Assembly (NCBI GenBank): GCA_015956445.1
Contig: WIUZ02000011.1
Span: 1,017,501 to 1,081,500 of the forward strand
Reading direction: 5' to 3'
Source: Thelephora terrestris
Lineage: Eukaryota > Basidiomycota > Agaricomycetes > Thelephorales > Thelephoraceae
DNA length: 64,000 bases
The notes beneath the pieces were generated by a model, which was not told the origin of the DNA, did not search any database, and saw only the letters and a list, made by a program, of their open reading frames with translations. Position numbers and translations under genes: made by a program. The first letter of the stretch is position 1, and each line of letters opens with the position of its first letter. Positions 12,654 through 64,000 of the stretch are shown one piece after another.

Positions 12654-12665
12654 TACGTCATTGTC

Positions 12666-16502: not shown

Positions 16503-16578
16503 TATATAGATTATTTGAGATGGGGTTCCGTCAAAACATTGAGATGTGCAATGTGGGTCCAAGAGTGTCATAAGCTCA

Positions 16579-21579: not shown

Positions 21580-21613
<34 letters not shown>

Positions 21614-22433: not shown

Positions 22434-22442
22434 CTATATAGG
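22434..22442 (+). promoter_or_regulatory. TATA box of F1 LTR
   Basis: CTATATAGG followed by TACCAGTAGAGTAGCTGAGG; the same context is found inverted in F2 (25616-25624) and F3 (62654-62663). Confidence 0.55.
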
Positions 22443-22499
22443 TACCAGTAGAGTAGCTGAGGATTCCCCATCTTTGATATCTCGGGAAGTCCTCTTCTC

Positions 22500-29800: not shown

Positions 29801-32800
29801 CGTGGGGGAAGGCTGCATAAGTCCTTATCTGTTCTGATTCTTCGTTGAGAAGCTGGACCCTCAGCTTCTCTAGCGCATTGTCTGTTCAGGTTCATTGAGC
29901 TGAGAAAGTGGTGCGCGCGTGTTCAAGCTTACGAGGGTTTGGCTCCTCAAACGGGTTGGGTTCAGATTGGTCATTTTTGTAGGCCGTTAACATCTTCCTC
30001 CATTCGGGAACAAACTTAGCCCAAGTAGCGGTCATCGAGTCGGCCTCCTTACGCTGATCTTCAGACCCCTGGAGAGCCCGTTTGAGCATCGTCTTCAACT
30101 GTGAGCCTAAGCAAAGGTTAGTTAACTTGTTGATGAAGGAGATTAGGTGCCTTACAAAGACCAACGACTTTCCGCCAATTCCACCCGTTCCAATGATCAT
30201 CCAGAATCATATGGCGGGCAGCTGGTCCGTTCTCCCTTGACCAAACCGCAAGCGACGTGGAGTGGGACCATATGGTCTCGACACCCTCTCCGTGGGTCAA
30301 TCCAACACCATCCATGTAGGCGAGATTGAACTTTGCCTGACACGATGCTCCGTGGCCGGTGATGTGGAACTTTGGAACTGCTACACGAAATGAATCTAGT
30401 GACTTGATATCGAGGGGTGGGAGGGAGGTAGTATCCATGCAGCGACGAGAAAAGTTTTTTCCCCACTGGCAACCAATGTCGTAGGTGACCACGACATCCT
30501 TAACCCCCGCATCGATATCGTCCTTGAGAGTAGACGCGATAGCATACACTGGGGGCAATGGGACACTTACCCAGCAAATGCATTGTGATTGCATTGTGAT
30601 TTTTTAGACAATGTGTCCAGCCTTTGGCCAGGAGGTACATGCTGAGTTCTTTTACAAAGTGCCCATCAATGCGACCACAATGTGGCCAGTGGGTCCATCT
30701 TGATCACTTTTACAAAGTGCCCATCAATTCGATCACAATGTGTCCTGTGGGTCCATGCAGGATACATTGTAAAAGTATCCATCAAAGTGGCCACTGGGCA
30801 CTTTGTGAAAGAAACCCCTGGTTTCTTTCACAATTTTGTTCACAATGTATCCTACTGGGTGCCTGAGCCACTCATTGAGAGTTCTTTCAAAAAGTAACCA
30901 GCAATGTGACCAAAATGTCCCCAGGGGGTTCTTCTTAATGTTTTCACAATGAACTCTCAATGTGGTTGGATTTCACAACAAACTCTCAAAGAAACCATTG
31001 AGTATCTGGTTGGATACTTTGTGGACACATTGCTGGATACTTTCTGAAAGAACTCTCAATGAGTGGCTCAGGTGTATGCTGGACACATTGTAAGCAAAAT
31101 TGTGAAAGAAACCAGGGGTTTCTTTCACAAAGTGCCCAGTGGCCACTTTGATGGATACTTTTACAATGTATCCTGCATGGACCCACAGGACACATTGTGA
31201 TCGAATTGATGGGCACTTTGTAAAAGTGATCGGGATGGACCCACTGGCCACATTGTGGTCACATTGATGGGCACTTTGTAAAAGAACTCAGCATGTACCT
31301 CCTGGCCACAGGCTGGACACATTATCTAAAAAATCACAATGTAATCACAATGTAATTGCTGGGTAAGTGACCTATTGCCCCCAGTGATAGTCGATATTGA
31401 TATACCTGGACGTGATAGTTAGCTAACGAGGAAGCAATGCACTACAATGGATTACCGTTCGCCCTTCTGAAGATCTACGACTCCTTTCGGACGGATGAAA
31501 GCATGGCGGCATGATACAGCGGCAACGCCGGTAACAGCGTACCCCTGAGAAGACTTCGTATACGCCTGGTTCACGGCGTGGAGATCCGGACCGCAAGTGG
31601 TGGCCTTCATCATGATGATCAGCGATCGATCACCAGGACGAATGGGGAACTCACAGATTGAATTGAGTTTGCATTTGCTTCCAGGTACGTTCGATATGGA
31701 CTTTGATCCACCACGTAACCCATTCCAGTTCCAAGGTCGGTGTCACTGAACCCACGATCTTTCAACTTTAATTTGAAGCAGGCATCAATGCCCAAGAACA
31801 AAGTATTTTTCCAGCTTATACAAAAAAGAGTGAGTACAACAACAACAACCAGTAGATAGCAGGATCAGTCGTAGGACTCAGATACAGGAAGATGGAGAGT
31901 GTTCTTCCCCGGGTGAGGACACGCAGGACAGGGTATTGCCATGCTCCCGTTTGGCAACGACCCAACAGTGAAAGAGTGGTGCACGGCACCGCCTCGCTTG
32001 AGGATCTGAAGATGACACCAGATGCGGAAGACGAGGACTATCTCGTTGTAGCGATGCTGCGGAATGTTAAGTCAGCGAGAGAGGTGCTATAAGATGAACA
32101 AACGGCGTACAATCGCTGAATTCAACCCTGCAGCATCCGAACGGCGAAGGATAGCATTGTAGAAGTCGTATGGATTACATTTATTCTGATCCTGGAGCTT
32201 GTGGAAGAAGTCGAGCATGTCAAATGCAAACGCCGTTGCAGGACGAGCGATTGTTGCCGGAAACCAGCGGAAGCGGAGGAGCTGAGCGTGCTTGGAAGGT
32301 GCGTGATCACAACGGCAGTAGCGGACAACAAGACGGTTGACACCAGATAGACCGAACACCATTAAATCTTGGAGGTCGGAAGGGGAGGGACAACGGTCGC
32401 CGATGTTGTGCCCAAGGTGGACGACAAGACCAGCGGAAGTGAGGGTGACGTCTTTGAAGAACTCCCCATTCCACTTCTAAAGGTACGTCAGCGCCAACGC
32501 GATACAATGAATGCCAAACAATATACCTGGACCTTGTGGAGTGGCGCATCCGCATGGCGCAAAAGCAGACAAGCACTACATAGTAAATTTGCCGAAAGAC
32601 AGTCGAGACACCGATAGGTTGCAGGCGATTTACATGTGGCGCAGGATAACGTTTGAGGAGGAGCCTCTAAACGAAGAAGTTCGTGGAGGAACTCAGTCCG
32701 GTGAGGAGTCCACTCTTGGAGTACAGCCTGGAAATGGGTGAACGAGTGATGACGTGGCAAACCTAGGTTGCACCTACGGACACCGAACGGCTTTTGTCAT

Positions 32801-35800
32801 TATTGGATATTTTTTGCTTGACTGAGGGAGCAGTGTTGGAAGAGCCTCGCTCATCTGGAGGCTGAAAGTCGTCCGCTTGAGGAATGGCATCGAAAGGGAA
32901 GAGGGGTGCCGGTGAACTACGAGGATCGACTCTTGACCCCTCGACAACACGCTTCTGGGTGAAACGACCACCTTTTCGAGCATGGGAAAAGACCTCGCAG
33001 GTCGCAGAGGAAGGGGACTCTTCGGCACTCCGTTTTCTTTTGCGAGATGATCGTACCATGAAGACGAAGTATCGAGCGCCAAATTCCGCGAGAACTTGTG
33101 GCCAGTGCTTCGGCTGTGTGCGTTCGGGAAAATGCGGACCGCGTGCAAATATTCATCCGTCCTGTTGCACTATTCAATGTCTAGTCAATCGTCCCCCCGT
33201 CGTGACAATGACATGGAAAATCACCTATTTCACTCGAAAACCCTCAAGGTCGAATTTCGTTCAGCACCCGTTCCACGCACGCACATAGATGCCATTGTCT
33301 ATTTTATTTTTATTTTTTCAAATGTAGTTACCGCGTAGGATTTGGTTGACTCCGAAATAATCAACCCAAATGCTTCGAAGATGTGAGAATGACACCGATC
33401 AGGATAAATGTAGAGGCGGCTGAACCAAGAGCTCGGGTGATTTGAGCATGGCAGTGGACCAATTTACGCTCGGACTCCGGAGGGGATCGAAGGAAAGTGG
33501 TGATCAGAGTCGACTCGATTGGGGACGTCGCACAATGCCAGGGTGTTGGGTGTTGACGTTGAGTGCCTTCAGTCTCTCTCGCGCGCAGCATCTCTTGTCG
33601 GAACTTAAGTATCTTGCGTGAGGCTGGGTTCTCGGTGGATCTTGGATATCTTGCACGAGACTAAGAGCTTGGTGGATCGCCCTCGTTGGATGTTTCCGGG
33701 GCTTGAGTTTAGGTTTTTTCTGGGCCTTTGGTATCTCGCGCAAGATCCTAGGTTCTTGGTGGATCTTGGATATCTCGCATCGGGTCACATTCTTGTTGGA
33801 TGTTGGATGTCTCGCACGAGACAGGTTCTTGCTGGATGTTGGATGTCTCGTGCGCACGAGACAGGTTCTTGCTGGATGTCGGATGTCTCGCACGAGACAG
33901 GTTCTTGCTGGGTGTTGGGTGCCTCACACGAGACAGGTTCTTGCTGGATGTCGGATGTCTCGCACGAGCAGGTTCTTGCTGGATGTTGGATGTCTCATGC
34001 GCACGAGACAGGTTCTTGCTGGATGTCGGATGTCTCGCACGAGACAGGTTCTTGCTGGATGTTGGGTGTCTCACACGAGACAGGTTCTCATTGGACGTTG
34101 GGGATCTCATACAAGATCAGGTCCTTGGTGGATCTTGGATATCTTGTGTTGAACAAGGTTCTTGTTGGATGTTGGGTATCTCGCACGAGGCGGGTCCTTG
34201 TATACCTAGCACGAGACAGGATCTTGTTGGATGTTCTGCCTCAGATATCTGATCCTCGCTGGACATTGGAGATCTGGCGAGAGATCAGGTTCTTGGTGGA
34301 TCTTGGATATCTCCCGCTGGATCACGTCCCCGTTGGATGTTGGCCGGGCGGTTTGCACGAGACAGGTTCTTGTTAAGTGTTGGATATGTTGCTCGAGGTC
34401 AGCTCTTGGTGGATCTTGGACGTCTTGGACAAGAGAGACTCTCGTTGGATGCCTCATGTGTCTCGCGTTGGACGTCTAGTACGCTAGTTCCCATTGCATC
34501 TTTTGCTTTCTTGTCGGGCGGACGTTGAGTATCCCGCGCAAGATCGCAATCTTGGTGGACCTTGGATTCCTCGCACATGCCTGGATCTCGATGGACCTTG
34601 CAATCGGACGTGCACGGTTCTTGTTACATAGTGCCGCCGCAATCCTCGAAACCGCTTCGAGGTAAGCTCCTAAACATTTGAATCCTCGGTTTCGCGCACG
34701 CGAGGCAGGGATTGGCTTCTCCGCCTCGCTTGCCCTAGGACCGGAATTTCATAGAGGTGACCTCACGTGATTGGTCGGAGAGCCAAACAGAGCCTCGGCC
34801 CTCGCGTCGCTCCTTTCCCGCATCCACCGCCGCTTTCCCTCTCATCGACATCTCTCCTCTACTTCTCGCTTGTCTTGGTCCACGTCCTAACCCCACTCCC
34901 CTTCAAGCCCAGCCGACCCCAATCCCTTTCCTGAAGGTTTTTTTCTTCATATTATTTACCCCATTGCGCCTCATGGCCTCAGCCCCTCGAGATGACCCCT
35001 GCGCTCGTCCTAGTTGACCCATTTGCCCTCCAAACCTCAGCCAGGTCGTCGTCTTGCAATCGGTTTACCTCTCCCTAGGACTCGCAATCGTCTCCATCCT
35101 TCGTTTCTCTTCCGTGACTGGCACCCGCCCTCCAGACTTCACCTTTGGCCCTCTGACACCACCGAATGACAGACACCTCTTCCCATAGGCCCGACCTCCG
35201 TTTTGGAGGAAAGTACAGACTTGGCAAAAAAAAAAACTCAGCTCCGGCTCTTGCGGTACGTGCCACGTCCTCGCAACACCAACAACAAGGCTGATGCACC
35301 GCTCCACCCACTTACCCTTACGAAATAACAGGTGGGGTCTATCTTAGAATCAACATCATTGGGGCGAAGAGATCGCCATCGAGTTCAAGTCTGTCAAGGC
35401 CAAGGTCTACAAGACCCTTGCTAGTGGCGTCGGCGTCCGTCAGCAACTTCTGCGGCCGCAAATTCTCTCTCAGGACGGATGTTGCTGATCAATTATGTAT
35501 ATGTAATCAATCCTCCCGTCTCACCGATGCCCAATGCTGATGCTGGCACGTCGGACAGATTTCTCGCATCGAGTACGTCCACTCCCGTAACTTCATCCAC
35601 CGTGACATCAAGCTTCTTGATGGTAATCGGCAAGCCCGGTCACCAGGTCAATGTCATCGATTGCGGTCTTGCCAAGAAGTACAGGGACTCGAAGACCCAC
35701 CTTCACATTCCCTACAGAGAGAACAAGAACCTGACCGGTACCGCTCGTTACACCTCCATTAACACCCATCTGGGTGCTGAGCAAGCCCATCGTGACGATC

Positions 35801-38800
35801 TCGAATCACTCACCTACGTCCTTGCGTATCTCTTCCGCGGACCTCTCCCTCGGCAAGGTCCCTCGGGTATAGAATTTGCGTATCACACCTTTGGTATGAG
35901 GCGTTCAACTTGCATAGATTGTTCGTTGCAATTGCAGCAGTGCATTTTGTATCAGGAAAATAATGTATCACAAATAAAAAGTTTGAGGGACTCGAAGATT
36001 TCAGTGAGCCCACACGGACCCTGCCAGCGGTCGTCGGCATATATAGTGGGATATAAAACCGTCACTACTCGATCGGGACTTTCCGTGACTGGTTTCCTCT
36101 CCTCTCATTTTACGCTCTTCTACGTGGCTCCTGAATCCAGTCTCCCTTCTCTTCCATGAGGCCTTGGACCACCCAGGAAGAGCGCCTATGGCTTACAGAG
36201 CGGATTCCTAGATGGCGCAAAAGAAAGGACAAAGAGAACAAGGGGTTCATGAGGAAGACGGAGGCCGAGTTTCTTAAGGTGTTTCCTACCTCTAAGGTTA
36301 CCCGTTTGGATGTAAAAACGGTAAGCATTCTCATCACTCTTTTCTCCCATGTAGAGTGTTACTAACTCAACCTAGCGACTGCAACAATGGTTCCATTATC
36401 ACGGCAACAAGGGTTCCGTTCCAAATCAACCGGTGTTCCGTTCTGGCATCCTCACTTTCAAAGCCCCACGGAGGGTTGTTCCCCTCACCCCAGCTCAGGC
36501 GTACTCGCGTTTATTCTGTCAGAAGGGTACCGCTCTTCACGCAGAGATGTTGAAGGCATGGGAACTTTACACTTCTTCTCACCAACCCACTCTCGACAAG
36601 TTTCGCCACCTCTTTGCTGCACACCACAAGAAACGCATGCCTTTTGTCACGTTCCAACAAGTTGTATTCAAGGACCGGTTAGCCACTGTTGCCACGCAAG
36701 CAGAGTTAGCCGAAGTCGCGAAGTACATCAACGAACACTTCGAGGAGCGGAAGGAACAAGTGGAGAGTCCCTGGAAGGCTCTGGCTATCGACAGTTCTCA
36801 GTCGCCGTTAGACTTGCAACGGAAATATGTTGAAGAGTGAGCACTTTCCTTTTCGTGGCTCGTTCGTTCGCTAACTTGCGTTCGTAGTCAGATCGCGGGT
36901 CTACCATCGTCACTCGATAATATCTGCAGAGAAATAGAGCAAGTAACTAACTTCAAGCCCTTCGTTATGTTCGGCGGACCGAGTCCCAGGGGCACGGGCG
37001 GTATGCAAATCTATTGGTACGTATCGGGTGCATCGGTCCAATGTAGTGCTCACTCGTCTTGCAGTCTGGGCGTTGGGGAAACGTTGCTTGAAGGTCATAC
37101 CTTTCAAGAATTCTTGGGTCCGTTGTGGGACACGCTCAAAGACAAGTATACTCAGTGGTTGAACGCAACGTACAGTATGTCCCACTGAAAACATTGTTAT
37201 TCCTTGACTGATTGCTCAACTAGGCCACGAGGAACTCCTTCGTTTGGACGGTCCCGCAAACGGTCCGTCTCAGGCTCCCTCTGCTCCTACCACTGCCTCT
37301 CCAAGCCCTGTGTCCACCCCTCAACGATCCCCAGGTCCACAAGCGACTTCCACGGATACGTTTACGGCCTCCGAAATTAATGCGCGAGAAGACTCGGAGT
37401 TATCCCCAACCCCCGCTCCACAAGCGACGGTGTGGACTCCCACGCACACACCGTCGTGGTCTCTGGGACCACAACACGGGAACTACCTCCATAAAGCTCG
37501 TAAGTATTTACTCGCTGTTCCCGGAGGCCCCGAATGGGAGAATTTGCTCGCGAAATTTGTGACCTTTGAAAGTCTTTCGTCCTCTCGCGTGAGTACCCTT
37601 TCTTCTTAATGGATCTACGCCCTCACTGATAATACAACAGCACATAAAATGTAAGCTACCGGCGAGACCACGCCCCGAAGAAGTGGGTTGGTGGTTTAAG
37701 CAAGGTCGTCCATTGGAGCTTCCGAGCCAGTTGCCAATCTTCAAGTCCCTGGAGTCCTTCGAAAAAGAGTGGGTGAGGTGGTGGACTGCCGCCCAGCCTG
37801 ATTGGCGCAAGACCGAGGATTGGCCGCTCCCTCAGGAGGTCCCTCAGGAGGATGTCGACAAGCCAGACTGGGACGAGCTCCCTAATGGTGGGAAAGATGG
37901 CCTGTTCCTTATCATAGTTACCCTTGGGTGGTGGATTCTCGCACGAGATCCATTGAAGAACTCGAAGCTCGACGATGCCATTGCGGATGTTGCTTGGGTC
38001 ATCGACAAACTTATCACCCTCCTCGCTATCGAACCTTCCGTCTCTGATTCCGAACGCACCTCCGTTCTCGAATCCGACGCCGACGCCGAATCCGACTCTG
38101 ACTCCAGCTTGGCCCTACCCCCTCCGCCGAAGCAAGGCCCCAAGGCGGCGAAGAAAGTGCCTCCAATGAAGGGAGGGCCTGCGGTGAAGAAAAGGCCTTC
38201 GGTCAAACAGAAAAGTGGGCCTCCGATGAAGACGAGGCCCCCAGTGAAGATAGGGCCTCCCCGCAATGCCAAACGCACTCGGTCGTAGTTGATTTTAATG
38301 TTAGGATTAGAGGGTCCACTACTACGAGTACTAGAGTCTTACTACGAAATGTCCTCCCCCTCGCCATGAATAGAATGTTTTTCCGTTGCTATAAACCAGT
38401 CGAGCGAACGGGCGGCAGTCTCCCCGGGTTTTCGTGTGGACTTAGAAGATTTTGTGAGATGATTCCCAATTAGGAAACTAGGCGCCTAACGAGCGGCGGG
38501 AAGGTCAGTGAGCTGGCACCAAGAAATTGGGACGCTACGGCTCGAATAATTGAATTTATAGAGCCGGATTAAACGGAAACGTTAGTCCTCCTTGTTATCT
38601 ACCCCTTCTACTTGAATAAAATTAAAAAAAGAGAGCTGCGGGCCCGCTATGTGGCATTTGAGTACCGGTTCGCTTCGCGTGCGGATTTGGCGCCCGAAAC
38701 CCGTGCCGCGTTCCGTGGCAACGAAAAACCAGGGCACGGAGAGTCAAAAACATAAGATTACGCTCTCGGACACGACGGGAATAATAGATATGTATATTAC

Positions 38801-49756: not shown

Positions 49757-50249
49757 TAGGATATGGGTGCAGTTTCCACGGTTTCTTAAAGAACATTTAC
49801 ACAACATCAATCGTTTTTTTCGTATGACTCTTGTAATATATTCCGTCCAAACTTTTTCTGGTACCTGCTTCACTCCCACTTTTGGTTTCCAAGTCTCGTA
49901 TATCGGATGGAACGAAGACAGATATCAACGGAACCGGTGTACATGCTCAGCGTTGGCTTGAATGCGGCCACAGTGAATCTGGAGACGTCTGGATCAGGCC
50001 CTCATTTTCTTCGAAGTTGATAACCTCAGGCGTAACATTGATGATCGCAACATTATTTATCAGAGTTGATTGCCAGCCACCACTGTGGTGCTCCTACTTT
50101 GGAACATGATTTCTTCTGTGGGGAGTTTGCAACTCTATCAGCGATTCTTCAAACTAGTTTGATCTTGAGCATGACAGAGCCTATACTGCTCTCCTTTCCG
50201 ACAAGAGGTATGCCATCAATATCAGCGGGGCGTGAGAGTAAGCGCTAGT
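49757..50249. other. Downstream flank of the F-box pseudogene
   Basis: Might include the remaining C-terminal part of the F-box gene; short open frames are present but none shows a motif. Nothing else is seen up to M5. Confidence 0.35.
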
Positions 50250-51197
50250 CACTGGGGGCAAGGGGTGGTGTTCTGGTCTGGAACACTGCAAGTTCATTGT
50301 AAGGAAATGGATAATGTAACTGGCTAAAACCTACCCAGTACATTGCAAACACCTCTCAATTTTCCGGGCCAATTTCCTTGCAGTGTTCCATCACAGAGAA
50401 TCTTTGGCACATTCTCAGTGTTCCCATTAGGTTATCCATGGGTACATTCTAAATTTTCCCAAAGAAAGTACCCTCAATGTTCCTGAGTGGCTCACTCAAA
50501 GAAAATTCTCAGTGAACCCTCAGTTCTCCAGATCATGTGACTGCAGTGTTCTGATTAGGTAAACCATGGGAACATCTTCAATTTTCCCAAAGAAAGTACC
50601 TGTGATGTTCCTGAGTGGCTCATTTGCAGTGCACTTTGCAGTGTTCCCAAAGTGCAATCACAGTGTTCCTGGTCAGGAAAATTTTGGGAACAGTGAAAGA
50701 ACACTGGAGAATTGGGAACATTTTAAATGAACTTGTGGTGTTCCCAGTTTTTCTTGTGTTCTTGCAGTGTTCTTGCAGTTTTCCTGACCAGGAACACTGT
50801 GATTGCACTTTGAGAACACTGCAAATGGCCACTCAGGAACATCACAGGTACTTTCTTTGGGAAAATTGAAGATGTTCCCATGGTTTACCTAATCAGAACA
50901 CTGCAGTCACATGATCTGGAGAACTGAGGGTTCACTGAGAATTTTCTTTGAGTGAGCCACTCAGGAACATTGAGGGTACTTTCTTTGGGAAAATTTAGAA
51001 TGTACCCATGGATAACCTAATGGGAGCACTGAGAATGTGCCAAAGATTCTCTGTGCTGGAACACTGCAAGGAAATTGGCCTGGAAAATTGAGAGGTGTTT
51101 GCAATGTACCGGGTAGGTTTTGGCCAGTTACATTATCCATTTCCTTGCAATGGACTTGCAGTGTTCCAGACCAGGATACCACCCCTTGCCCCCAGTG
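50250..51197. mobile_element. M5: CACTG foldback element
   Basis: 948 bp, starts CACTGGGGGCAAGGGGTGGT and ends ACCACCCCTTGCCCCCAGTG, with the 3-bp repeat AGT on both sides. A nearly complete palindrome with its axis near 50723. The arms are built of recurring ACACTGCAA, TTTCCCAAAGAAAGTACC and GAGTGGCTCA. No coding capacity. Confidence 0.9.
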
Positions 51198-51491
51198 AGT
51201 GACGGTGAACTGAAACAAGGATGAGGAAGTGTGGATCACAGTCAATGTGTTTATCGCGTTGTTTGTGGTCAGTCACACCAACAATCCCAACAAGAGACCG
51301 CAGAGTCCCAATGGGTATCTTCATGTCCTAGGGAAGATTGAGCCAGAAGGTGGAAGGCGCAGAGGACTTCAGTGCAATATTTTGATTCATGAGTGGGGAA
51401 ACTGACCATGATTATATTGACGGCGAGTTGGTCAGAAGTGAATAGGGGGGAAATTCACATTCAACAATCTATGAGGCTGAATGCAGGATGT
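51198..51491. other. Spacer between M5 and the dioxygenase stop codon
   Basis: 3' flank of the minus-strand dioxygenase gene. A minus-strand open frame around 51320-51200 has no recognisable motif. No terminator-type signal can be named. Confidence 0.3.
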
Positions 51492-54211
51492 TCAATTTTT
51501 TTCACCAGACGCAAAATCATACTTTTTGAACTCCCTGTAGATATTCTCTTCTTGCTTCTCCAGCTCCTTGGCTGAAGGGGCATGAGTGAAATACACCCAC
51601 ACCACTCTGCCAGGGGTGACTCCAGACTTGGATCGGATGGCAACTTCAGTTGTCCACTCCTGGATTCCATGGTAGAGAATATCTGTTCAACAGATAATCA
51701 CATCTCCCGGTTGATAGCTAAATGGGGAACATTGAAAATCAGGCGAATAAGATGTAGATGAAAAGATGTACACTAATTTGAGAATCAACTGAGGGAAGCA
51801 CATTGCACCTCCAGAAAAATTTCCCCCTGGCGTGGAAGCAGAGAGCAAGTCAAGCCAATCCAGGTGGCAGCCCACCTGCACCTTCCACAATGTGACCTTC
51901 CCCAAAAAACAACCTTCTCTTCCGGAGTCAATTTTTCCTTTGTCAAACAAGGAGGTCAGTTGGCCATGCAACTCTGGCTCAACTGCCTTCACCAGGCCAG
52001 AAATTTTCATGTGTTGGCTGTCCGTGACCCCCTTGTAATTAGTGTCACTGGGGGCAAGGGGTCAAATACCCGGTGGGTACATGCTGAACACATTGTGATC
52101 ACAGTCAACAAGTGATCACATTGTGCCCAGTGGGGGAAATTTGAATACATTCAAAATGTGCCTGGCCATGTGAGTCCAATGTGCCAAGTGGGCACATTTT
52201 GATTGTGATCACAATGTACCCATCAATGTGATCTCAATGTGCCCACTGGGACATTTTGATTGCGATCACAATGTACACATCAATGTGAACTCAATGTGCC
52301 TGCTGTGCACATTTTAATTTCTTTCACAATGTTCCCATCAATGTGTTCACAATGTACCCAGCTCATTACATAATAGTTTCTTTCACAATGTTGTCCACAA
52401 TGTGTCCAGCATGTGGCTGAGCCACTCACTCAAACTTCTTTCACAAAGTATCCAGTGATGTGTCTAGAATGTGTACAGCCATACACATAGTGATTTCTTT
52501 GAAAGTTCATGGTGAAATCAAAAGATATTGAGATTACATTGTGATTACTTCAAAAAAAACCCCCTGGGGACATTATGGACACATCACTGGGTAATCTTTG
52601 AAAGAATTTTGAATGAGTGGCTCAGCCACATGCTGGACACATTGTGGACAACATTGTGAAAGAAACTATTATGTAATGAGCTGGGTACATTGTGAACACA
52701 TTGATGGGAACATTGTGAAAGAAATTAAAATGTGCACAGCAGGCACATTGAGTTCACATTGATGTGTACATTGTGATCGCAATCAAAATGTCCCCAGTGG
52801 GCACATTGAGATCACATTGATGGGTACATTGGACTCACATTGTCAGGGCCACTCTACCCCAACAACTACCAGTGCACTGAGCCGACTCCGCAGAGTACTC
52901 ACTAGTCCAACTAGCTTGTGAGAGAATGATCACGTCTCTATTCTTCCGGTAGGTTGTCCGAGGTCACTACAAGTCAGGTCGAAATCCTAAAGAGAAACCC
53001 AACCTAAACCGTACTTTGTTCGGTTTATCCAACAAGGGTTTATCCCTACAACAGGATTGATGACTCCACCAGTTGATCGACTGGACGCTCGAGGTGTTCT
53101 AATATGAACGCTGGGGTTCTATAGTTACGAGGCGCAGTTGACGTGCAGAGCGGGAGGGAGAGCAGATGGGGATGTCTTGGATCAAACAAGAAACTCTGAC
53201 TTGACCTTAACTGCAACTGGGCTGAGAAGGGCAGAGGATTTCCTGAGGTAACAAAACTAAGGTACTACAATACAGCCACAGTTGCTACTTATACTAAAGG
53301 AGTGGCCATGACGTCAATACCCTTATCAAGTCCAGAACAAAGGGAGATAAGGAGTGTGAGAACGCTAAGTAAGGGAAGCGAACAAGAGGTGACGTGTGGG
53401 AGAATAAAGACAAAGGGCCTTACTAGCGTGTGAAGGATTGCATAAAAGATAACGAATGTCCGCATGAAACATAGGGGTAAAGATAACACTAGTCCTAAAA
53501 GAAATAGGGGCATGGGGTCATGAAAGTTCGTACCTGGGGATCACACCCAAGGGTCAGGTGAAAACCTCTCATTGCTTCGTGCAATTTTCGACCGGCTCCG
53601 AGATAAAAGACCATACAGCATCCCTTGTTGTCTGTAGGCGGTAACGGCATCACGGACTAGTGGCAACCTCAACGTACGTCTGAACATGAGGAGGTCGGGC
53701 CTAGACTCATGGGACATGAGGGATTACAGATTCGCCAGTGTTTCATGCTAACGGCTACTCCACATTCGCTTGGCTAAACAAAAGGAGTCTAAGGCACTCC
53801 TTTCGAATAACAGTGATTCCTTCCTCTGGTTAGGAGACTGTGATGTGACTGTCCACATGTGTGATCAGGGTCCAGGGTTGATCGTAATCGTAAAGTCATG
53901 AGGGGTCGTAAAAAGAGGTTCGTGATGTCATAAAGGGGTCATCAGGGTCTTGAGACCTATTTTTAGTGTGCGTGCGTTCTAGGCGTTCCGGAACGAAGTT
54001 CTTCCAAGGCCGTCCCGCGGGCCGAGGTGTCAACTTGATACAGTAAGCCAACGATGATGGTACAGGGGCGGAAGTTGATGTGACCTGGACCAATGAGGTT
54101 CGTCGAGGTAGGTCACGTGAAGGATCACCGATCTAGGCTATAAGAAGGACGTCTTCTTGGAGCCATCCTTGATCAGCAACACCAGCAACTTCCCCATCAT
54201 CTTACCAAAAC

Positions 54212-56453
54212 ATGTCCTTCCCCAACAACCATACCTACAAAGTCGCCAATGGCATTTCCACCATCTCTCGCATCGACCGCCGTGCCGCTGCTCGCAAGTC
54301 CTACGCCTGTGCAGCGGGGACTCCCTATACCACTGATGACCAGGTATGGGGGAGACCTAGAGCTTCGTGTATTTGCACTAACGCCTTCCTCTAGGTAGAG
54401 GTCCGTTCCTTCGGGCGTTGATGTCCAGCTAACGGCTTCTAGATCTTGGAGGTCGTCACAGAAGTGGACACTGAACGTCTCAGGGAGACAATCCCACACT
54501 TGATGGGTTTGACCTGGGACGATGAGCTCTGGGTTCGTACGATAATCGCCGAGAAGTTGGCCTTCCAGATGAGGGGTAGGTTCGGAGAGTTGGAGCATCC
54601 GATCAAAAAGGAGCTCTGGTACACCCTGCAGAGGGGAATCTACGATCAGGACCTGTTGGAGCACGGAGCGACCGTTCCTCGGGCCGTCCGCCACGCCACC
54701 ACTTCCACTAGTCTCTTGTGGTCGCTCGTTCGGGAAGGAGAGAGCCGGGTAGGTTCTCTGTTTGAATATTCGAGTATGACTCTCGACTAATCAAACTGCC
54801 TAGGTTGAACGATTGGAGCGTGAGGTGAAGGAGGCAAAGGCAGACGTCCTTCGTCTGTCAGCGGAGAGTCTTCAGATGAAGGAGACATTGGCAGCCTTCC
54901 AACAGGGAACAAATGAGGCGTTGGAGGCAATGGTCGCCAACCATCAGGAGTTGATCGCCGGGTTGAAGGTTCGGGACAACAACATCAAGGGGGCGTTGGC
55001 CAGGAGGGATGAAAAGGTTCTTTCAGCCTTTGCAGGTTTATGCAATGACTGAGAGACTTCCTCTAGACCGAAGAACTCGAAAATGTGGTGGCCGTGTTGA
55101 CGGCGCAAGTCGAGTCCTTGCAGGACAAGACCTGCAACTGTAAGGAGGGTCCCGTGTTGGTTGGTCAGGGGACTGCCGAGGTTCCGTTCGAGCTGGAGTA
55201 CGCCGACGAGGTGGTACTCCCTTCGCCTAACCCATTGTCCTATGCAACGCCTCCGATCGAGAACTCGGTTCCCGTTCTGACTCCGGCTCCAGCTTCCACT
55301 TTGGCCGCTTCCGATAAGGAGAACTGTGGGCGCTGCGCCTTGCAGCCGATCCATCAGTTGGTGAAGATCGAGGATGAGGTCATGGAGGTTGACCGAGCTG
55401 AAGATGCTCCGAGGGTCGCCGAGGTACGTCCGGTGACTAACACTGGGGGCAGGGGCACCTGGAATCAGTGATTACATCTTGATTACATGGTGAGCTCGTG
55501 TGCACTTTTCAATAATTGTGATTGCCGACTCCAGGTTGATTACATTTCAAATGTTACCTTGACATGTAATCCAACTGTTGCCACCAACTCCATTTCAAAT
55601 TTCCTCAAGATGTTCCCAAGCAATGTTTCCTGAATGTGCCCAGTGGGTACATTGTGAAAACATCTCATATTTTTGAGCCCATTTAGATTACATCTTGGAC
55701 GATTGAAGAACATGCTGATTACATTGCAGTATCATTTTTGCCAACAGGTCAAAAACATCCCAGAAACATTTGTTGAGAACATTTCAAATGGAATTGGTGG
55801 ACATTGGTTGGATTACATGTCAAGGTAACATTTGAAATGTAATCAACCTGGAATCGGCAATTACAATTATTGGAAAGTGCACATGAACTCACCATGTAAT
55901 CAAGATGTAATCACTGATTCCAGGTGCCCCTGCCCCCAGTGTAAGGGGCAACGCTGCAAACGCTCTCAACACTGTCCTGCCCATCGTATGACCGCATCGG
56001 CTAATCCTTACCCTCGACCAGTTGAGTCGGATGGTGACCAGTCTGGTCGAGGTGAGGAGCGAGGATTCCGATATTGGGTCCACCGTCCTTACCGACAGGT
56101 CGAGTCAGAGATCCAACTCCGACACCAGCTTCGCCTCGCAAGACAGGATCCCGCCCAGGGGTCCGATGAGGGAGACGGAGGGTCACTTGTCGACTACGTC
56201 GATAGTGCTGCCGAGCAGTCACCCGGTGATGGAGATGTGGGACCAGGTGTTCCGCAGTTCGGTGACATCTGGGAGGCTGATCAGTCCGCTCGAAGGCATC
56301 TCTTCCTATCGGCTTGAACTAGTCGTTCAGCTGAGTGCCGAAGATGGTGACGCCATGTTCGGGGAGGTCCTTGCGAGGAGGGGCCAGCACTACGATCTCC
56401 GGGATGGACAGTTGATGAGCTTTAGGCCTGCCATAGATAGAGTCGATTTCTGA
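54212..56453 (+). CDS. Embedded gene of A2: coiled-coil protein
   Basis: Blocks at 54212-54340, 54443-54747, 54805-55016 and 55070-55440, and beyond M3a at 55942-56317 overlapped by a second frame to 56453. A TATA-like CTATAAGAAGG lies at about 54137. It shares with A1 the domain segment [20 protein letters not shown], the coiled coil [17 protein letters not shown], a Cys-containing [13 protein letters not shown], and the tail DAMFGEVLARRGQHYDLRDG in the second frame. Spacers have GT...AG borders at the same sites as in A1. The blocks are open except for the M3a insertion. Function unknown. Confidence 0.55.
55441..55941. mobile_element. M3a: CACTG foldback element in A2
   Basis: 501 bp with CACTGGGGGCAGGGGCACCT termini and the 3-bp repeat TAA on both sides. 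A1 (2033-2045) gives the exact empty site GTGACTAAGGGG, so the duplication is certain. A palindrome with no coding capacity. Confidence 0.95.
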
Positions 56454-57385
56454 TGGGACAATGATAGCACTTTGTATAGCCATGTTGATTCGCTGGGAAT
56501 AGTACGCGCATGTGTGTGTTTCGAATGATTGGTGTGAAGGATAAGGAATGTGAAGCATTCAAACATAAGAAATGGTAAGAAGAGTTCGAAGAAAGAGCGA
56601 GTATGAAAAGTTTAAAAATACCATGTTCCTGACACACATGGCCAGGCACATTTTGAATGTATTCAAATTTCCCCCACTGGGCACATTGTGATTACTTGTT
56701 GACTGTGATCACAATGTGGTCAGCATGTACCCACCAGGTATTTGACCCCTTGCCCCCAGTGTGTAGTTGACTGCCACATAAGAGCCATGAGCCCGTGCCC
56801 TCGAGGGGATTAGTGGCTGAGGTTGACGTCAGCCAAAATCATAAGCTGGCAAAAGGAAAAAAGAGTACCTTGTGGCCCTGTGCCCGCCAACAATCCACAT
56901 GATGAGTGACCCCAACAGGTTCAACCATATCCGTCTCCTCCATGGTGATTGGATCTGCCACTGTAAACCTAAAATCGCCCTGCGCTGCACTCTCCTGGTG
57001 ATGACGATCATTGACAATGGACACTATTTTGGGAGGGCAGTGGTGATGATAAACCTGGGTAGCCCACTGGGCCCTTTCAACAATGGGAGCCTGGAAAATT
57101 TATGTCAGCGGAAGACGGGAAGTGAAAAGGCAAATTAACTTATGTTGCATCTGTCAATTATGTGTTCCTCCTAAGAGAGGAGATCAGAACCCAACATGGC
57201 CAAGAGGGGCAGCACATACCCCAAGGTACCTGCGGGCGGCGTATTAGAGCAAAAACTTGCCCTGGGAGTCCAACACCCGGCAGGAGTAGGGCATGTGGAG
57301 GTTGCTGTCCCCACACATTTCTTCAAACTTCAGTTTGATGGCCTCAACCACTGCTGTTTTGCCCCTCTGGGCAGTCAGTTCTTCA

Positions 57386-57886
57386 CACTGGGGGCAGGGG
57401 CACCTGGAATCAGTGATTACATCTTGATTACATGGTGAGTTCATGTGCACTTTTCAATGATTGTAATCACCGATTCCAGGTTGATTACATTTCAAATGTT
57501 ACCTTGACATGTAATCCAACTGTTGCCACCAACTCCATTTCAAATTTCCTCAAGATGTTCCCAAGCAATGTTTCCTGAATGTGCCCAGTGGGTACATTGT
57601 GAAAACATCTCATGTTTTTGAGCGCATTTAGATTACATCTTGGACGATTGAAGAACATGCTGATTACATTGCAGTATCATTTTTGCTGACAGGTTGAAAG
57701 CATCCCAGAAACATTTGGTGAGAACATTTCAAATGGAATTGGTGGACATTGGTTGGATTACATGTCAAGGTAACATTTGAAATGTAATCAACCTGGAATC
57801 GGTTATTACAATCATTGAAAAGTGCACATGAACTCACCATGTAATCAAGATGTAATCACTGATTCCAGGTGCCCCTGCCCCCAGTG
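57386..57886. mobile_element. M3b: CACTG foldback element in the dioxygenase gene
   Basis: 501 bp, very similar to M3a, with the 3-bp repeat TCA on both sides (57383-57385, 57887-57889). It is inserted a few codons after the dioxygenase start codon. Confidence 0.9.
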
Positions 57887-57906
57887 TCAATGGAAATGTC
57901 AGCCAT

Positions 57907-58307
57907 GATGGTATCCGAAAAACTTCAGTTCAAGCAAATTAAAGCAGGCGGGAGGCTTATGTTCGGCCTTAGAAACGTACTCTGCCTATTTTTTGGCAGA
58001 ATGAGCATGCATCTTTGAACAGTGTCTTATGCTCTCCTACAAACTCTTAGTGGTCCGATGGATTGCTGCTTTTTTGAGGCGGTATTGAAGGCGTGCCAAC
58101 AAGGGGGAGGGTGGCCAGCTGGGAGGGATACTTTCGGTGGTCCTTCAGCTGGAGCCCAAGAGTAAGGGCAGGTGGCAGCACGGGCCAACCAGACTCAATA
58201 GGCAGAGGGAGTCATGCCAGAGGGGGGACAAAACACAGGAATAACAGGAACCAACCCTTCGGCCTTGCCACAGGGTTGGGAGAAGTAGTAAAAAAGAGAG
58301 ACCAACC
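57907..58307. other. Upstream flank of the dioxygenase gene
   Basis: No gene with support. It should contain the minus-strand promoter of the dioxygenase; I see no clear TATA box. It ends where AT-rich mitochondrial-type sequence begins. Confidence 0.35.
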
Positions 58308-58699
58308 TTGAATAATAATTCTATTTTTTTAAATGAAATTGGAAGTAATAAAAATGAATCTTTGAATATAATTGTTTTATTTTCGAATCCAGAAACTTTG
58401 GTTAATTTAAGTTTAATTGTGATTAATTTCCCATTAAATACTAATGGCCCAACATTACCTAAAGGTAGTAGGTATTTAAAATGAAAATAAAATTGAATTT
58501 GCTTAAATTATGTGCATAAGCCATCAAAGTTTTATCAACTTTGAAAAAGCTTAATAAACCTTTAAGAAAATTAGAAAATAAATTCTTTTTGATTATTTGA
58601 AAATGATTTGATATATTCAGTACCATTATAAGCACAAATTAAATAAGGAATAAATTTATTATTTTCAACAATTGTTTCAATATCTATAATTGTTGAACC
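58308..58699 (-). pseudogene. dpo: Nuclear insert from a mitochondrial linear plasmid: family B DNA polymerase fragment
   Basis: An abrupt AT-rich island among GC-balanced DNA. The minus strand encodes, in order, STIIDIETIVENNKFIPYLI (exonuclease motif I, DxE), MAYAHNLSKFNF (motif II region) and FKDSFLLLPISFKKIE, as in protein-primed family B polymerases of fungal mitochondrial plasmids. Such plasmids integrate in mtDNA, and pieces reach the nucleus as NUMTs (known). The piece covers only part of the exonuclease domain, is broken in frame, and lacks the polymerase domain. Base composition is wholly unlike its neighbours. Confidence 0.85.
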
Positions 58700-58915
58700 A
58701 GAGGTCTGTGCCTGGCAACGGGTCAACTGGCTCCACTGCTTTGAGTGAGAGCCAATGCTGGAGAGCACTGAACAAGCATCCCGAAGGGACGGTGTCATAT
58801 CAGTGACACAATTGATCGGTATGATGCGCACGTGCCTTAAGCCGTCGCACGGACCCTGCATCAGTCACGCTATATAGTTGTGACATCAATAGAGTAGATA
58901 GATATATATACCACG
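58700..58915. other. Spacer between the mitochondrial insert and B2
   Basis: No gene seen. TATATATA at about 58902-58909 lies immediately outside B2; its role is unclear. Confidence 0.4.
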
Positions 58916-59892
58916 TGTCAGAGTTGAAGGCCTGCTTACTGTTTGTGGGGGTGCTAGAAGATTAGTGGGATAAGGAGTATTGGGGTGGGGTTTGGTGAAG
59001 GGAGTTCCGGGAGTGGAGGTTAGAGGTGGGGAAATGTCGAGAGCGAGTGGAAACTCAAATTGATAAGGATGGATGGGAGAGTTGTAATCTTGGCAGAATT
59101 CAACGAGGTGTTGAATGAACAGTTCAAAGTCTTGATCGCTAAGTCATTTGAAGCTGTTGTGATAATCTATAACAGTGAAGGGGAGGTCAGTTGGGATGTC
59201 CCACCAAAGAACGATGATGGCAGGGCAATGGGTATGAACATTGGTAGTTAGGTGAATGCAAGGGTTGGGGAAATAAAAAGAGGAACTAATACTGAAGTAG
59301 ACAGTAGCTAACACACTATCAGTAAAGTTGGATTTCCACAGAAATTGATGATCTGCGCCAAGCAAGAATGGCGGGAGGTGACTCTGGCGTCAAGGGTGTT
59401 GAAGGAGTGATAATAAGGGTGATGAGCTAATAGATCACTAGTTCTATTAGCTTGAAGACTTCTGATGAGTTTATACTCCCAGATAGACCTTTGAGCGTCA
59501 GGGATGACCAGGCGTTGGATGGGATTGTTAGAGGGGAAAGGATTTGGTGTGCTGAACATACACTTGCAGGAGAATTCCTGCTTAGGTGAGTTAGATAAGT
59601 AGTAAGGCGTGAAGAATTCCTCAGCTTACTTTGTTTATTGAACAGTTGGTAGGAGAGTACAGAAGAGATCGAGAATGGGGAAAGAAAGGGGCGAACGCTC
59701 TTCCTTATATACCCATTCCTCTACATGTTTAGTAATCATACAATGAGTCAAACAGGAGCAAACATGGTCTGTGCGCAGGTTAGGGCAGGGCAAATGAGTC
59801 AGGGACGAGAAACTTAGGACGACTACTGGTAAATACAAATGGGGAACAATAGGGAATGAGTCAATGGGAATACAATGGGGATTTCCCATGAT
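58916..59892 (-). mobile_element. B2: B-family LTR-like unit, left part only
   Basis: Starts TGTCAGAGTTGAAGGCCTGC, diverged from B1 and B3. It includes the TATA box (59704-59711, minus) and a broken counterpart of the 207-residue frame between about 58930 and 59560. F3 is inserted at 59893 (ATGAT before it), and the remainder lies beyond the window. The most degraded B copy here. Confidence 0.7.
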
Positions 59893-60032
59893 TGTCAGGG
59901 CCACTCTTTGCCCTTCAGGTACCAGTGCTGTTGGTGAGTCGCAACTCCAACCAACAAGAGTCAATGGGGCAAAGGGGGAACGACTTCCCTATATCCACCC
60001 AAAGTCTACGTGTGTCAGGGTTGTGGGCCTGC

Positions 60033-60656
60033 TTACTGTTTAAGGGGCACTAGAGGATTAGAGGACGGGTGAGGAGTGTTGGGTCGAACTTTGAGGGGGG
60101 TTCCGGGTGTGGAGATGAGGGAGGGAGGAACGTCAAGAGCGAGTGGTGACTCAGTTTGATAAGGATGGACGGGTGAGTGATAGTCTTGGCAGAATTGACT
60201 CAATTGCTGAATGAACAGGTCGAAGTCTTGGTCGCTGAGGCGTTCAAAGCTTATGAGATACTCTATAACCGAATAAGGTAATTCAGTTGGAATTTCCCAC
60301 CACAAGACAATAATAGCTGGGGAATGGGTATGAATGTTAGTGGTAAGGTGAACGTGGGGGTTGGGGAAGTAGAAGGCCAGACTTATACTGAAGTAAACGG
60401 TTGCTAGGATGCTCTCAGTGAGGTCGGAGTTCCAAAGGAACTGATGATTGGCTCCTAAGAGAAAAGGAGGAGTGGTGACTCCGGAATTGAGAGCTGCGAA
60501 GGGACGATAATAAGGGAAATGGGTGAGTAAACTGGCGGTTCGGTTTACTTGAAGACTTCTGATGAGCTTATACTCCCAGATAGATCTCCTAGCGTCTGGT
60601 ATGACCGGACGTTGAATAGGGCTGGTAGAGGGGAATGGGTTAGGGGCGCTGAACAT
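60033..60656 (-). CDS. B3 207-residue protein, function unknown
   Basis: Intact counterpart of the B1 frame at 4927-5550, of equal length, starting MFSAPNPFPSTSPIQRPVIP. Conserved: WEYKLIRSLQVNRT, TTPPFLLGANHQFLWNSD, FYFPNPHVHLTTNIHTHSP and VLWWEIPTELPYSVIEYL. It ends about 20 bp inside the unit. Not recognised. Confidence 0.6.
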   Translation of the reverse strand: MFSAPNPFPSTSPIQRPVIPDARRSIWEYKLIRSLQVNRTASLLTHFPYYRPFAALNSGVTTPPFLLGANHQFLWNSDLTESILATVYFSISLAFYFPNPHVHLTTNIHTHSPAIIVLWWEIPTELPYSVIEYLISFERLSDQDFDLFIQQLSQFCQDYHSPVHPYQTESPLALDVPPSLISTPGTPLKVRPNTPHPSSNPLVPLKQ

Positions 60657-60804
60657 ACACTAGCAGGATACGTCCTGCTTTTGAATGAGTCAGAAGGAGT
60701 AAGGCGTGAGGAGAATTCCTCAGCTTACTTTGTTTATTGAGGTTGTGGGTAGAGGAGTACAGAAGAGATTGGGAATGGGGAAAAGAAAGGAGCGAACGCT
60801 CTTC

Positions 60805-60812
60805 CTTATATA
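60805..60812 (-). promoter_or_regulatory. TATA box of B3 LTR
   Basis: TATATAAG on the minus strand, 150 bp upstream of the 207-codon frame, in the same context as in B1. Confidence 0.55.
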
Positions 60813-61304
60813 CCTAATCCTCTACAGGAGTCATAATTCTACAATGAACCAAACAGGGATCAACATGGTCTGTGCGTAGTTTAGGGTAGGTCGAATGAGT
60901 CAGGTCAGGGGAACTTAGGGTGACGAATGGTAATTACTAATACGGGAACAATGAGAGGAACGAGTTGATGGAAGCATTAGGGAATTTCTCATGTTTTACG
61001 GTAGTAATAGAAGCGTGCTGGGGATTTCTCTGGATCGATGGTAGCAATAGAAGCGTGGTGGGGATTTCTCATGATCGGTGGGGATTTCCCAGGGTTTGAT
61101 GGGATCGCGATTGGGGCTGAGGGTTCGTTTACCCTAGTTGGGACTTTTAATGAGTGATGGCTTTATTGTTTCCCTCTTTGGGTGTCCTATCGACTTGGAC
61201 GTATATAATCCAGTGGGATTATTGGTCTTTTCTCTCCATCGCCTCTTTTCCACTCCCACCAATACTTAACAACTCTTCCCTCTCATAAACAACCTTCCCC
61301 TACT

Positions 61305-62199
61305 ATGTCTTCCACCGCCCACGCTACTGTCCTCAACGCTAACGCGGTTCCCTTTGACTTCTCTCCGTCTTTTGAGACCGACCGTCCTTATGAGGTCAAA
61401 CAACACCTTTACAACTCCCCCGCAAACATTGCTCATGACAATCGAGTCGCCATCGACTTCTTGACCGCTCACCATGCTCCCCCTCAATTTTGGGACCAGG
61501 CCGGGTATGAAGACCCTAACCGAACGGTTATGCGGGCCCCTGGTGTTCCCCCTTTGTTGGATGCGATGGAGAGGGAGAGGGAGGATAGGATTACGAAACT
61601 GGAGAAACGCGTGGACCTTATGTATGTCACCATGAACAGTCTGAATGATGACTTCTCTCACTTTGCTTTGGAACATTGGGAACCTTTCCAGGCGTCTCTC
61701 TTCCGATATTTCAGACACCAATGTCGAGGGGCTTATTGCACCGACCCCCCTTGCAAGTCCCCAGTCGTCCCTTCGCCACCACCAGGATCGGGGTGTTCCT
61801 CTCCCTCCATCCCCTCCCTGGAGTCCTGCCCCAGTTCGTCAGATGGTGGAGAGGTCCCAGAGGAAGAAGAGTCGCAAGAGTCCGATGACTCGTTCTGGTC
61901 AACGTTGTCGTCCCTCCAACAAGTCATGGCAGGTTCAAATGAAGTTGAAGGTAGAGGTAGCGGGTCTCCAGGACCGCTATGGGTTCGTATTGGTGAGCGA
62001 GGCATTGACGGACGTGAAGAGAGAGATGCACGAGAGTCTCCAGCATGACGTTCTGGGGTGCCGGGATTGTTGGCAGGATCCGGTGACTCGAGTGTACTCG
62101 TACTGTCCTCAGAGCATACACAACCCTCACCACTTTGCCCATCATTGTCCGTTTCCCCAGGATTGTACTTGTGACGTAGACCCTTTTGTCCTGGTTTAG
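61305..62199 (+). CDS. Embedded plus-strand gene of B3, with two overlapping frames
   Basis: ATG 61305 follows a TATA-like GTATATAATCC (about 61200). The first frame (to 62048, 247 residues) has FDFSPSFETDRPYEVKQHLY, ANIAHDNRVAIDFLTAHHAP, a coiled coil at EREREDRITKLEKRVDLMYV, and a Ser/Pro-rich acidic tail. The second frame, shifted +1, runs to 62199 and ends with CRDCWQDPVTRVYSYCPQS and HHFAHHCPFPQDCTCD, a possible zinc-binding module. Layout and both frames agree with B1. Not recognised. Confidence 0.5.
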
Positions 62200-63079
62200 T
62201 TTTATAGTATTTGTTAGCCGCCTTTGTACTTTTACCACTGCGAATAAGACCAATGTCTTGAATCACTTGTGTGATCTTAGCTACTATGTCACGTGTTCGT
62301 GACAACGTGGTCCAAAACGCGATGGACGAGTGTTCTCCGGTAGGTTGTCCGAATTCACAGCAGGAGTGCCGAGCCTCTATCTGACAGATCCCTATCTTCG
62401 TCTGAGGGCAGATGTAAGAGCCCGAGGATGGCGCCTCAAACTGGTGCTTGATCAAGAGAGCGACAAGGAACTCCTTTTTGTAAGTGCGTTCGCCGATTCT
62501 TGATACAAGTCCGAGAGAGAGAGGAGAGCAAACATGTTCAAAGAGGTACTCGATAAGCTCTTCAGTGGCCTACAGCAAATACACCGATGCTGCAAGGAGA
62601 AGAGGACTCCCCGAGATATCAAAGATGGAGAATCCTCAGCTACTCTACTGGTACCTATATAGGAGAGTGGCCGGGACAGAGATAACCCTATCTAATAATA
62701 ACTCGGAGTAAAGAAGGGCCGAGAGTAAGCCAGAACAGTAAGCGGCCCGGAACTTAGAATAGAAATAACAAAGGAATGACTAACGGGTCAGGGTTCGTGA
62801 GAAAACAAAAAGGGGTCATGACGTCGTGTGGGAAAGGAATGGCAAAGAACAATATCACATGTGAAGACAAACCAATGGGAGGACGACGCGTCAGCTCGTC
62901 TGATCGGGGTAACAAAAGACCGAGTGGGGCTTGAATGTCCAGGCAAATGTATGGGGAGTCTGGACCGGTGAAACGATGGACCGACCCAATAGCGAATAGG
63001 GCGCGAGCGCTATCGATGGATCCATCAACTCTTCTTCCTAAACCAACACTCCTACCAACCAACTACTCATCCTATTATG

Positions 63080-63713
63080 CCCATGATCCGTAGGAAATAA
63101 GGGATACTTCCTTCCTGCTCCCAGTGTGGCGTACCCCAGTTATCGAGAGGTGCGTTGTCACGCGCACACCGGTGGTTGGCGTCAACTGACATCGCATTCA
63201 CAGATCTTTGCAGTCGCCAACAAGGTGGATGCTCGTCAACTGGAGGCGACGATCGTTAATCCTCCCAAGTATTTAACCATGGACGACAAGTTGTGGTTCC
63301 ACAACTTGATCGACCACAAGCTGCAAGAGTCAATGCATGGGGTGACGTTCGATACCAAACTGCGCATGCCGTGGGAGACTCCTGTAGTGTCAGCATTGTG
63401 GGGTCTTCTGCAGATGGGAATCTACGACCTAGGAAATGGCCCAGGAAGGTGGCCTGGAGCTACTCGCTCTCAACACTACACTGCAGCCGTTGGTCACCGT
63501 CTCTGGTTTCTATTGCGGACGGAACAGAAAGCGGTGAGTCGATCTGTGCATCCCACTTGTGGGATAACACTGATTGGCCTTGTAGAATGAGCGTTTGAAG
63601 CGCGAGGTGAAGGAAGCGAAGGACGATGCTCGCAGGATGTACTCAGAGATGCTGGACACCAAGAAGACTCTCCTCCTAATGAACGACATGCTTCGTGTGA
63701 CGTTCGAGAGTGA
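63080..63713 (+). CDS. Embedded gene of F3, first blocks
   Basis: After ATG 63079 come a short first part with [10 protein letters not shown], the domain block at about 63204-63534 ([51 protein letters not shown]), and the start of the coiled coil from 63586 ([20 protein letters not shown]), which M3d interrupts at 63714. It matches F1 and F2. A fossil, broken. Confidence 0.5.
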
Positions 63714-64000
63714 CACTGGGGGCAGGGGCACCTGGAATCAGTGATTACATCTTGATTACATGGTGAGTTCATGTGCACTTTTCAATGATTGTAATCGCCG
63801 ATTCCAGGTTGATTACATTTCAAATGTTACCTTGACATGTAATCCAACCAATGTCCACCAATTCCATTTGAAATGTTCTCACCAAATGTTTCTGGGATGC
63901 TTTCAACCTGTCAGCAAAAATGATACTGCAATGTAATCAGCATGTTCTTCAATTGTCTGAGATGTAATCTAAATGCACTCAAAAACATGAGATGTTTTCA
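63714..64000. mobile_element. M3d: CACTG foldback element, cut by window edge
   Basis: Starts CACTGGGGGCAGGGGCACCT after TGA and follows M3a/M3b to the end of the window. It interrupts the coiled-coil block of F3. The right end and second duplication are outside. Confidence 0.85.

Follow-up and report, generated by a model that had tools for sequence, protein, structure and literature searches.

The DNA analysed here is a stretch of 64,000 nucleotides from Thelephora terrestris (C3:1017501-1081500, referred to as the window; the genome comprises 40.6 Mb in 60 contigs), and its main subject is a unit, A2, that lies at 52841-56634, is flanked on both sides by CACAT, starts with TGTCAGGGCCACTC (first letters TGTCAGGG) and ends with CCATGTTCCTGACA (last letters CCTGACA). 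Judged by its relatives, A2 is a solo long terminal repeat (LTR) of a retrotransposon family, A, and its U3 region carries a gene with introns on the strand opposite to pol. Copies of A for comparison were the best-scoring matches (40 scored out of 776 DNA-search candidates); 20 copies were aligned, L012 and L030 were removed as duplicates or near-duplicates, and the remaining 18 copies underlie all counts given below as fractions of 18. The features of A2 are as follows:

52841-56634, minus strand: A2, solo LTR of a chromovirus, U3 at the right, CACAT on both sides; LTR status via full-length relatives
53248-53259, minus strand: putative self-primer copy, TAGTTTTGTTAC; full-length A has its reverse complement at nt 3-14 past the 5′ LTR; identical in 18/18 copies
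53288-53293, minus strand: TATA box of the LTR-sense promoter; TATAAG in 17/18 copies, TATAAA in 1/18
53983-53994, no strand assigned: palindrome CGTTCCGGAACG ahead of the antisense gene, candidate site for a regulator (putative function); found in L029, with the same letters in A2
54139-54144, plus strand: TATA box of the antisense gene, with the ATG 73 nt further on; TATAAG in 18/18 copies
54212-54343, plus strand: antisense gene, exon 1 (MSFPNNHTYK...)
54443-54748, plus strand: antisense gene, exon 2, predicted helical with low confidence
54804-55016, plus strand: antisense gene, exon 3, coiled-coil-like by eye
55067-56190, plus strand: antisense gene, exon 4, split in A2 by a nested element; right border not fixed
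55440-55942, no strand assigned: nested inverted-repeat element of about 503 bp, CACTGGGGGCAGG ends, TAA duplication, foreign to the LTR
56331-56453, plus strand: final exon of the antisense gene, including the stop; left border not fixed

The nested element, which was absent from the preliminary description of this DNA, looks CACTA-like. Inverted-repeat copies with the same ends lie at 57385-57887, 24042-24522, 63713-64000 and 16575-16922.

A2 is assigned as a solo LTR because its full-length relatives hold direct A copies around gag-pol. At C1:546891-559509, two direct A copies of 3301 bp each, differing at 2 sites, enclose a 681-amino-acid gag frame with a zinc knuckle (CCHC) and a 1322-amino-acid pol frame; the ends of this element are TG..CA, and both outer flanks read GATTA. 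The pol of A (L029) was found with Pfam to contain protease, reverse transcriptase (RT), RNase H, integrase and a C-terminal chromodomain in chromovirus order, and by this domain content A is a chromovirus (Ty3/Gypsy with chromodomain). Eight A pols (99-100% identical over 400 amino acids) and eight LTR-internal junctions were counted in the genome; RT matches sit between A ends of the same orientation, and pol runs antisense to the A gene, as the LTR assignment demands. A primer site follows the 5′ LTR of full-length A, a purine-rich tract stands just before the 3′ LTR, and pol ends about 20 bp from that LTR. The outer 5-bp flanks agreed in 6/6 elements tested (on C1, C4, C11 and C56, and two on C12), the two C23 copies lying outside the test. 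The preliminary description had read A2 as LTR-like and had proposed a search for direct copies around gag-pol with primer-binding site and polypurine tract; this arrangement was recovered for A, bounded by 5-bp duplications.

The LTR assignment of A was extended to a second family, E, which is represented in the window by the following features:

18889-22906, plus strand: E-family LTR, ACTTT on both sides, with an insert of about 1.1 kb at 20870-21954
20060-20707, minus strand: E antisense gene, exons 2 (20381-20707) and 3 (20060-20326)

Three E pols are present in the genome, 73% identical to the A pol over 400 amino acids, and one of them, on C12, is flanked by an LTR of the same family as 18889-22906. 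This element (C12:1325805-1337501; one checked out of three, its interior read in part) has two direct LTRs with TG..CA ends, 2934 bp long by their coordinates, together with a primer site, a purine tract and a visible gag frame, and GTTTT stands on both sides (flanks matching in 1/1). The common internal start occurred 11 times, namely 8 times in A and 3 times in E. By these structural marks, A and E are both families of LTR retrotransposons.

Within the window, units were searched for with TGTCA...TGACA ends, a spacing of 0.3-6.5 kb and identical 5-bp flanks. Four were obtained (4907-7131 with CCAAC, 18889-22906 with ACTTT, 52841-56634 with CACAT and 60013-62304 with ACGTG), compared with a mean of 1.5 and a maximum of 5 after shuffling of the flanks; this count is not clearly above chance and is weak as stand-alone evidence. 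The case for the unit ends is therefore carried by repetition across the genome. The left end of A (30 bp) occurred 410 times at ≤3 mismatches, the reversed control giving 0, and about 394 of the 410 lie outside the 8 full-length elements. Among the 16 solo A copies for which both ends were read, drawn from the best-scoring matches, 15 have matching 5-bp flanks (14 plainly and L026 with its last base changed; L027 was mismatched); truncated or nested copies in the L013, L015, L016, L017, L018 and L026 loci were omitted from this count. Of the eight target duplications listed in the preliminary description, CACAT, CCAAC, ACGTG and ACTTT were recovered under the search settings used, and CTTGT, GGAAG, GTAAG and AGACT were not.

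The A gene has at least five exons, its own TATA box and a stop, all placed within the U3 of about 2.8 kb. Variable sites in the 18 copies were sorted by codon position over five exon blocks (1398 nt; 136 nt around the fourth intron were excluded) and gave 96/62/264, compared with 22/22/24 in introns 1-3 and 94/76/71 upstream of the ATG. When windows are slid along the gene, the phase of the variable sites changes at the points where the exon model shifts frame. Introns 1-3 start with GT and end with AG in 18/18 copies, even with intron 3 ranging from 40 to 51 nt in length; the ATG is intact in 18/18, and the final stop is TGA in 17/18 and TAA in 1/18. The exon blocks are free of indels relative to L029 in 17/18 copies, A2 differing only by its nested element. 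Because codon phase and splice sites are conserved in this way, the antisense gene with introns, as claimed in the preliminary description on the basis of GT...AG spacers, is real by comparative evidence, and its expression is predicted. A candidate intron within exon 4, whose GTACGT donor at about position 2590 of the LTR is perfect, was considered and rejected, the codon phase being unchanged there.

Selection on the A gene was estimated against a neutral expectation derived from the spectrum of private variants. Variants shared among copies comprised 222 synonymous and 69 non-synonymous changes (ratio 0.14 relative to this expectation), and private variants 102 synonymous changes, 95 non-synonymous changes and 3 stops (ratio 0.44). 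In the E gene, the ratio of non-synonymous to synonymous substitution rates (dN/dS) was 0.02-0.06 in five exon comparisons. The A and E proteins are 32-43% identical over most of exons 2-3 (exon 2 alignment 36-39%; one piece of 28 amino acids 61%), and the border between exons 2 and 3 is at the same place in both genes. As judged from these comparisons, the two antisense proteins are homologous, and the gene is under purifying selection in A and in E. Since selection is strong on shared variants and weaker on private ones, the pattern fits a protein that is needed by moving elements and a gene that decays after insertion.

Two promoters stand back to back in U3. The LTR-sense TATA box (TATAAG, 53293-53288) lies about 0.45 kb before the left end of A2, and beyond it, on the plus strand, follow the TATA box of the antisense gene and the gene itself. 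The stretch between the promoters is variable at 189/923 sites, compared with 68/206 in introns and 422/1398 in coding blocks (18 A copies); variability is lowest in the 0.38 kb before the antisense ATG, and a variable island is present at about 721-800. The palindrome CGTTCCGGAACG falls within the least variable 0.38 kb, and we take its TTCnnGAA spacing to resemble that of a heat-shock element.

A putative self-primer was recognised near the LTR-sense TATA box. The internal region starts with GAGTAACAAAACTACCAGCC in A and with ATATATCAAAGATACCAGCC in E, and nt 3-14 (A) or 3-13 (E) of the interior are the reverse complement of a stretch located 34-35 nt after the TATA box of the element's own LTR; the putative self-primer sequences differ between A and E, yet each covaries with its own LTR. 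An LTR-derived primer copy beside the LTR is the arrangement of Tf1. Self-priming is a known mechanism, and basidiomycete clades include MarY1, Laccy and Tcn (PMC2864245). With Tf1-type self-priming chromoviruses, A shares the CCHC gag, the protease-RT-RNase H-integrase-chromodomain pol and the LTR-derived primer copy; it differs from known chromoviruses in that the LTRs of the present families measure 2.9-3.3 kb and hold an antisense multi-exon gene.

On balance, we read A2 as a solo LTR of a probably self-priming chromovirus whose U3 holds an antisense accessory gene, the product of which would act on the U3 promoters; our confidence in this whole is slightly better than even. With the complete gene inside the LTR, each full-length element has two copies of it, and a solo LTR produced by recombination between the two LTRs retains one. 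The gene would be transcribed and translated, and its protein, to judge from position and conservation, would act on the conserved divergent promoter region of U3 and so promote the element's expression. Because selection is strong in lineages still moving and relaxed after insertion, we rank activation or anti-silencing as the first candidate role; restraint comes second.

Several results weigh against this account. At 0.44, the private ratio stays under 1, perhaps because some of the changes preceded insertion or because solo LTRs are under some selection. One internal stop is present in each of 3/18 A copies, and the gene of A2 itself is broken by the nested element. The fourth intron, which the change of frame at about 2.86-2.99 kb of the LTR requires, has no fixed borders. 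No Pfam family was found for the A exon 4 frame, the E exon 2 frame, or the sense open reading frame (ORF) and two antisense frames of a further family, B, in a scan that did not include A exons 1-3; a PDB sequence search with A exon 2 gave 0 matches at E values up to 1, and the structure model of this exon, helical as modelled, was poor (mean predicted local distance difference test score (pLDDT) 50). Position and conservation are, moreover, the entire basis of the proposed function.

Among the alternatives, the one that survives best, as a minor possibility, is that the protein restrains the element as a copy-number control factor, more solo LTRs giving more protein and thereby less transposition. 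About 394 left ends outside the 8 full-length elements, and a gene that is free of stops in 15/18 aligned copies (from the best-scoring matches), would suit such a factor; a factor acting in trans is not expected to be selected within the moving lineage only, and the relaxed private ratio argues mildly against selection on solo LTRs. Somewhat less probable still is a role outside transcription, such as in packaging, target choice or entry into the nucleus. A basic stretch, KRSRRRPAHR, as a candidate motif, together with the helical, coiled-coil-like exons (by eye), would be compatible with such a role, and plant elements have antisense accessory proteins that were located in the nucleus (PMC7264820); nothing speaks directly against this alternative.

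The next possibility bears on family B as well as on A. The remaining units of the window are the following:

1-2737, minus strand: A1, second A copy, cut by the start of the window
4907-7131, minus strand: B1 unit, CCAAC on both sides
60013-62304, minus strand: B3 unit, flanked by ACGTG; LTR-like, without a pol partner in the places searched
60033-60659, minus strand: B sense-strand ORF, 208 amino acids, placed between TATA box and left end; without match in Pfam or PDB
61305-61745, plus strand: B antisense gene, part of the first exon, unrelated to A

The 208-amino-acid sense ORF recurs in B1 at 4927-5553 (minus strand), and a fragment at 58915-59893 is about 75% similar to B. Codon-phased differences were found in both the sense ORF and the antisense gene. 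The sense ORF is under purifying selection (dN/dS 0.09-0.13 in 3 comparisons), and exon 1 of the antisense gene gave a proportion of non-synonymous differences (pN) of 0.15 and of synonymous differences (pS) of 0.76 in one comparison; the gene in the antisense position showed no relation to the A gene by tblastn. In the genome survey of B, 150 of 407 sense-ORF candidates were scored, 144 of the 150 being free of stops, and 100 of 318 occurrences of the left end were placed. A PDB sequence search with the sense ORF gave 0 matches at E values up to 1, and its structure model was poor (mean pLDDT 32).

Pairs of B ORFs on the same strand and 4-18 kb apart were compared with 99 RT hits (150 matches): 1 of 20 pairs encloses RT fragments (broken, on C23), and 19 of 20 enclose none. 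Three B flanks (two of them at ends with an RT hit 3-6 kb away) gave no primer-site match and no internal start, and one B copy apparently lies inside the coding sequence of another element. No pol partner of B was thus found among the 100/318 left ends placed, the 150/407 ORF candidates, the 20 pairs and the three flanks, and B is termed LTR-like on the form of its units. The preliminary description had named A2 and B3 as the cleanest examples and had placed an antisense gene within the LTR in five families; the first part held for the LTR status of A2, B3 being LTR-like, and the second was demonstrated for A and E, B having an unrelated antisense gene and no pol partner found.

It is conceivable, if doubtful, that the gene-bearing LTR is itself a mobile unit and that solo A copies, and above all B, have spread as LTRs only, mobilised in trans, instead of being left behind by recombination. 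Two solo A LTRs (L011 1593-4889 and L012 4080-7376) are 100% identical over 3297 bp, stand in opposite orientation about 5 kb apart and are flanked by GACCC and CAAGC, respectively; an identical pair in different 5-bp duplications speaks for LTR-only mobility, and gene conversion could be an alternative cause. Degraded A pol was not found beside the about 394 LTR ends in the genome pol search, which was counted toward the same possibility, as were, for B, the conserved gene on each strand, the 318 left ends and the lack of a pol partner among the places searched.

It is improbable, and not favoured, that the LTR captured or carries a family of host genes that works for the host today, a domesticated or captured gene family being the alternative which the preliminary description had suggested. 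The gene is spliced, strongly conserved and present in many copies, as would be expected of a host gene; however, the gene moves together with its LTR, the 5-bp flanks matching, it occurs in both pol lineages (73% identity between them), and selection is strong on shared and weaker on private variants. That base composition, or constraint on the strand encoding pol, produced the open frames as a side effect, as long open frames on the opposite strand might suggest, is scarcely credible, since the variable phase tracks each antisense exon and vanishes in the introns, intron 3 changes length with GT..AG kept, and A and E are conserved more in protein than in DNA. Equally negligible, B perhaps excepted, is the view that the units are DNA transposons with TG..CA ends, which could appeal to the mostly single copies and to B without a pol partner among the places examined, but which is refuted for A and E by pairs of near-identical LTRs around gag-pol with primer site and purine tract.

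Other observations in the window concern separate elements. A palindrome of 5.26 kb at 9372-14631 looks perfect and is 99.66% self-complementary, and further self-complementary elements were seen at 30547-31386, 50249-51198 and 52204-52839. A degenerate tandem repeat at 33609-34462 encodes a peptide of HETGSCW type (by eye), an open frame at 35425-36159 is casein-kinase-I-like (by eye), and 58300-58690 is very AT-rich and could be of mitochondrial origin.

Among known systems, the antisense ORFs of plant elements (Grande gene23, RIRE2, Retand and PvRetro13) likewise encode an accessory protein opposite to gag-pol, that of Grande having its own promoter; according to PMC7264820, they lie between pol and the 3′ LTR, and their function is not known. 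The A gene does not occupy this position: it lies inside the LTR, pol ending about 20 bp from the 3′ LTR, and in contrast to the plant ORFs it is present in two copies per element and retained in solo LTRs. The main text of PMC7264820 contains none of the phrases "in the LTR", "within the LTR" and "inside the LTR", nor the word "intron". The LTRs of Cassandra, Helenus and Ajax also contain gene-like sequence, which is small-RNA sequence and not a protein gene (PMC10886601), and the phrase encountered in PMC1560396 refers to a gene that lies within an element but not within the repeat of that element.

Nearest in style is HBZ of human T-cell leukaemia virus type 1 (HTLV-1), a leucine-zipper regulator made from a spliced antisense transcript that starts in the LTR. 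HBZ reads from the 3′ LTR into the internal region, whereas the A gene ends within the LTR; the splice signals of the A gene are conserved, and the likeness is one of layout. The sag gene of mouse mammary tumour virus (MMTV) is a protein gene in the U3 of the LTR, as in A, but in sense orientation and with an unrelated protein. An antisense protein gene wholly inside an LTR was not found in the literature searched, which is available in part and covers subscription papers thinly, so that this absence is not proof.

An LTR is usually taken for regulatory DNA; those of A and E contain an entire, apparently spliced gene on which purifying selection is strong. Because the gene is complete inside the LTR, the scattered solo LTRs are gene copies too, and solo LTRs regarded as dead could keep making an element-encoded protein. 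Annotation of such genomes may accordingly list solo LTRs as host gene families. With at least two related families at hand, the role of antisense accessory genes for retrotransposons becomes testable.

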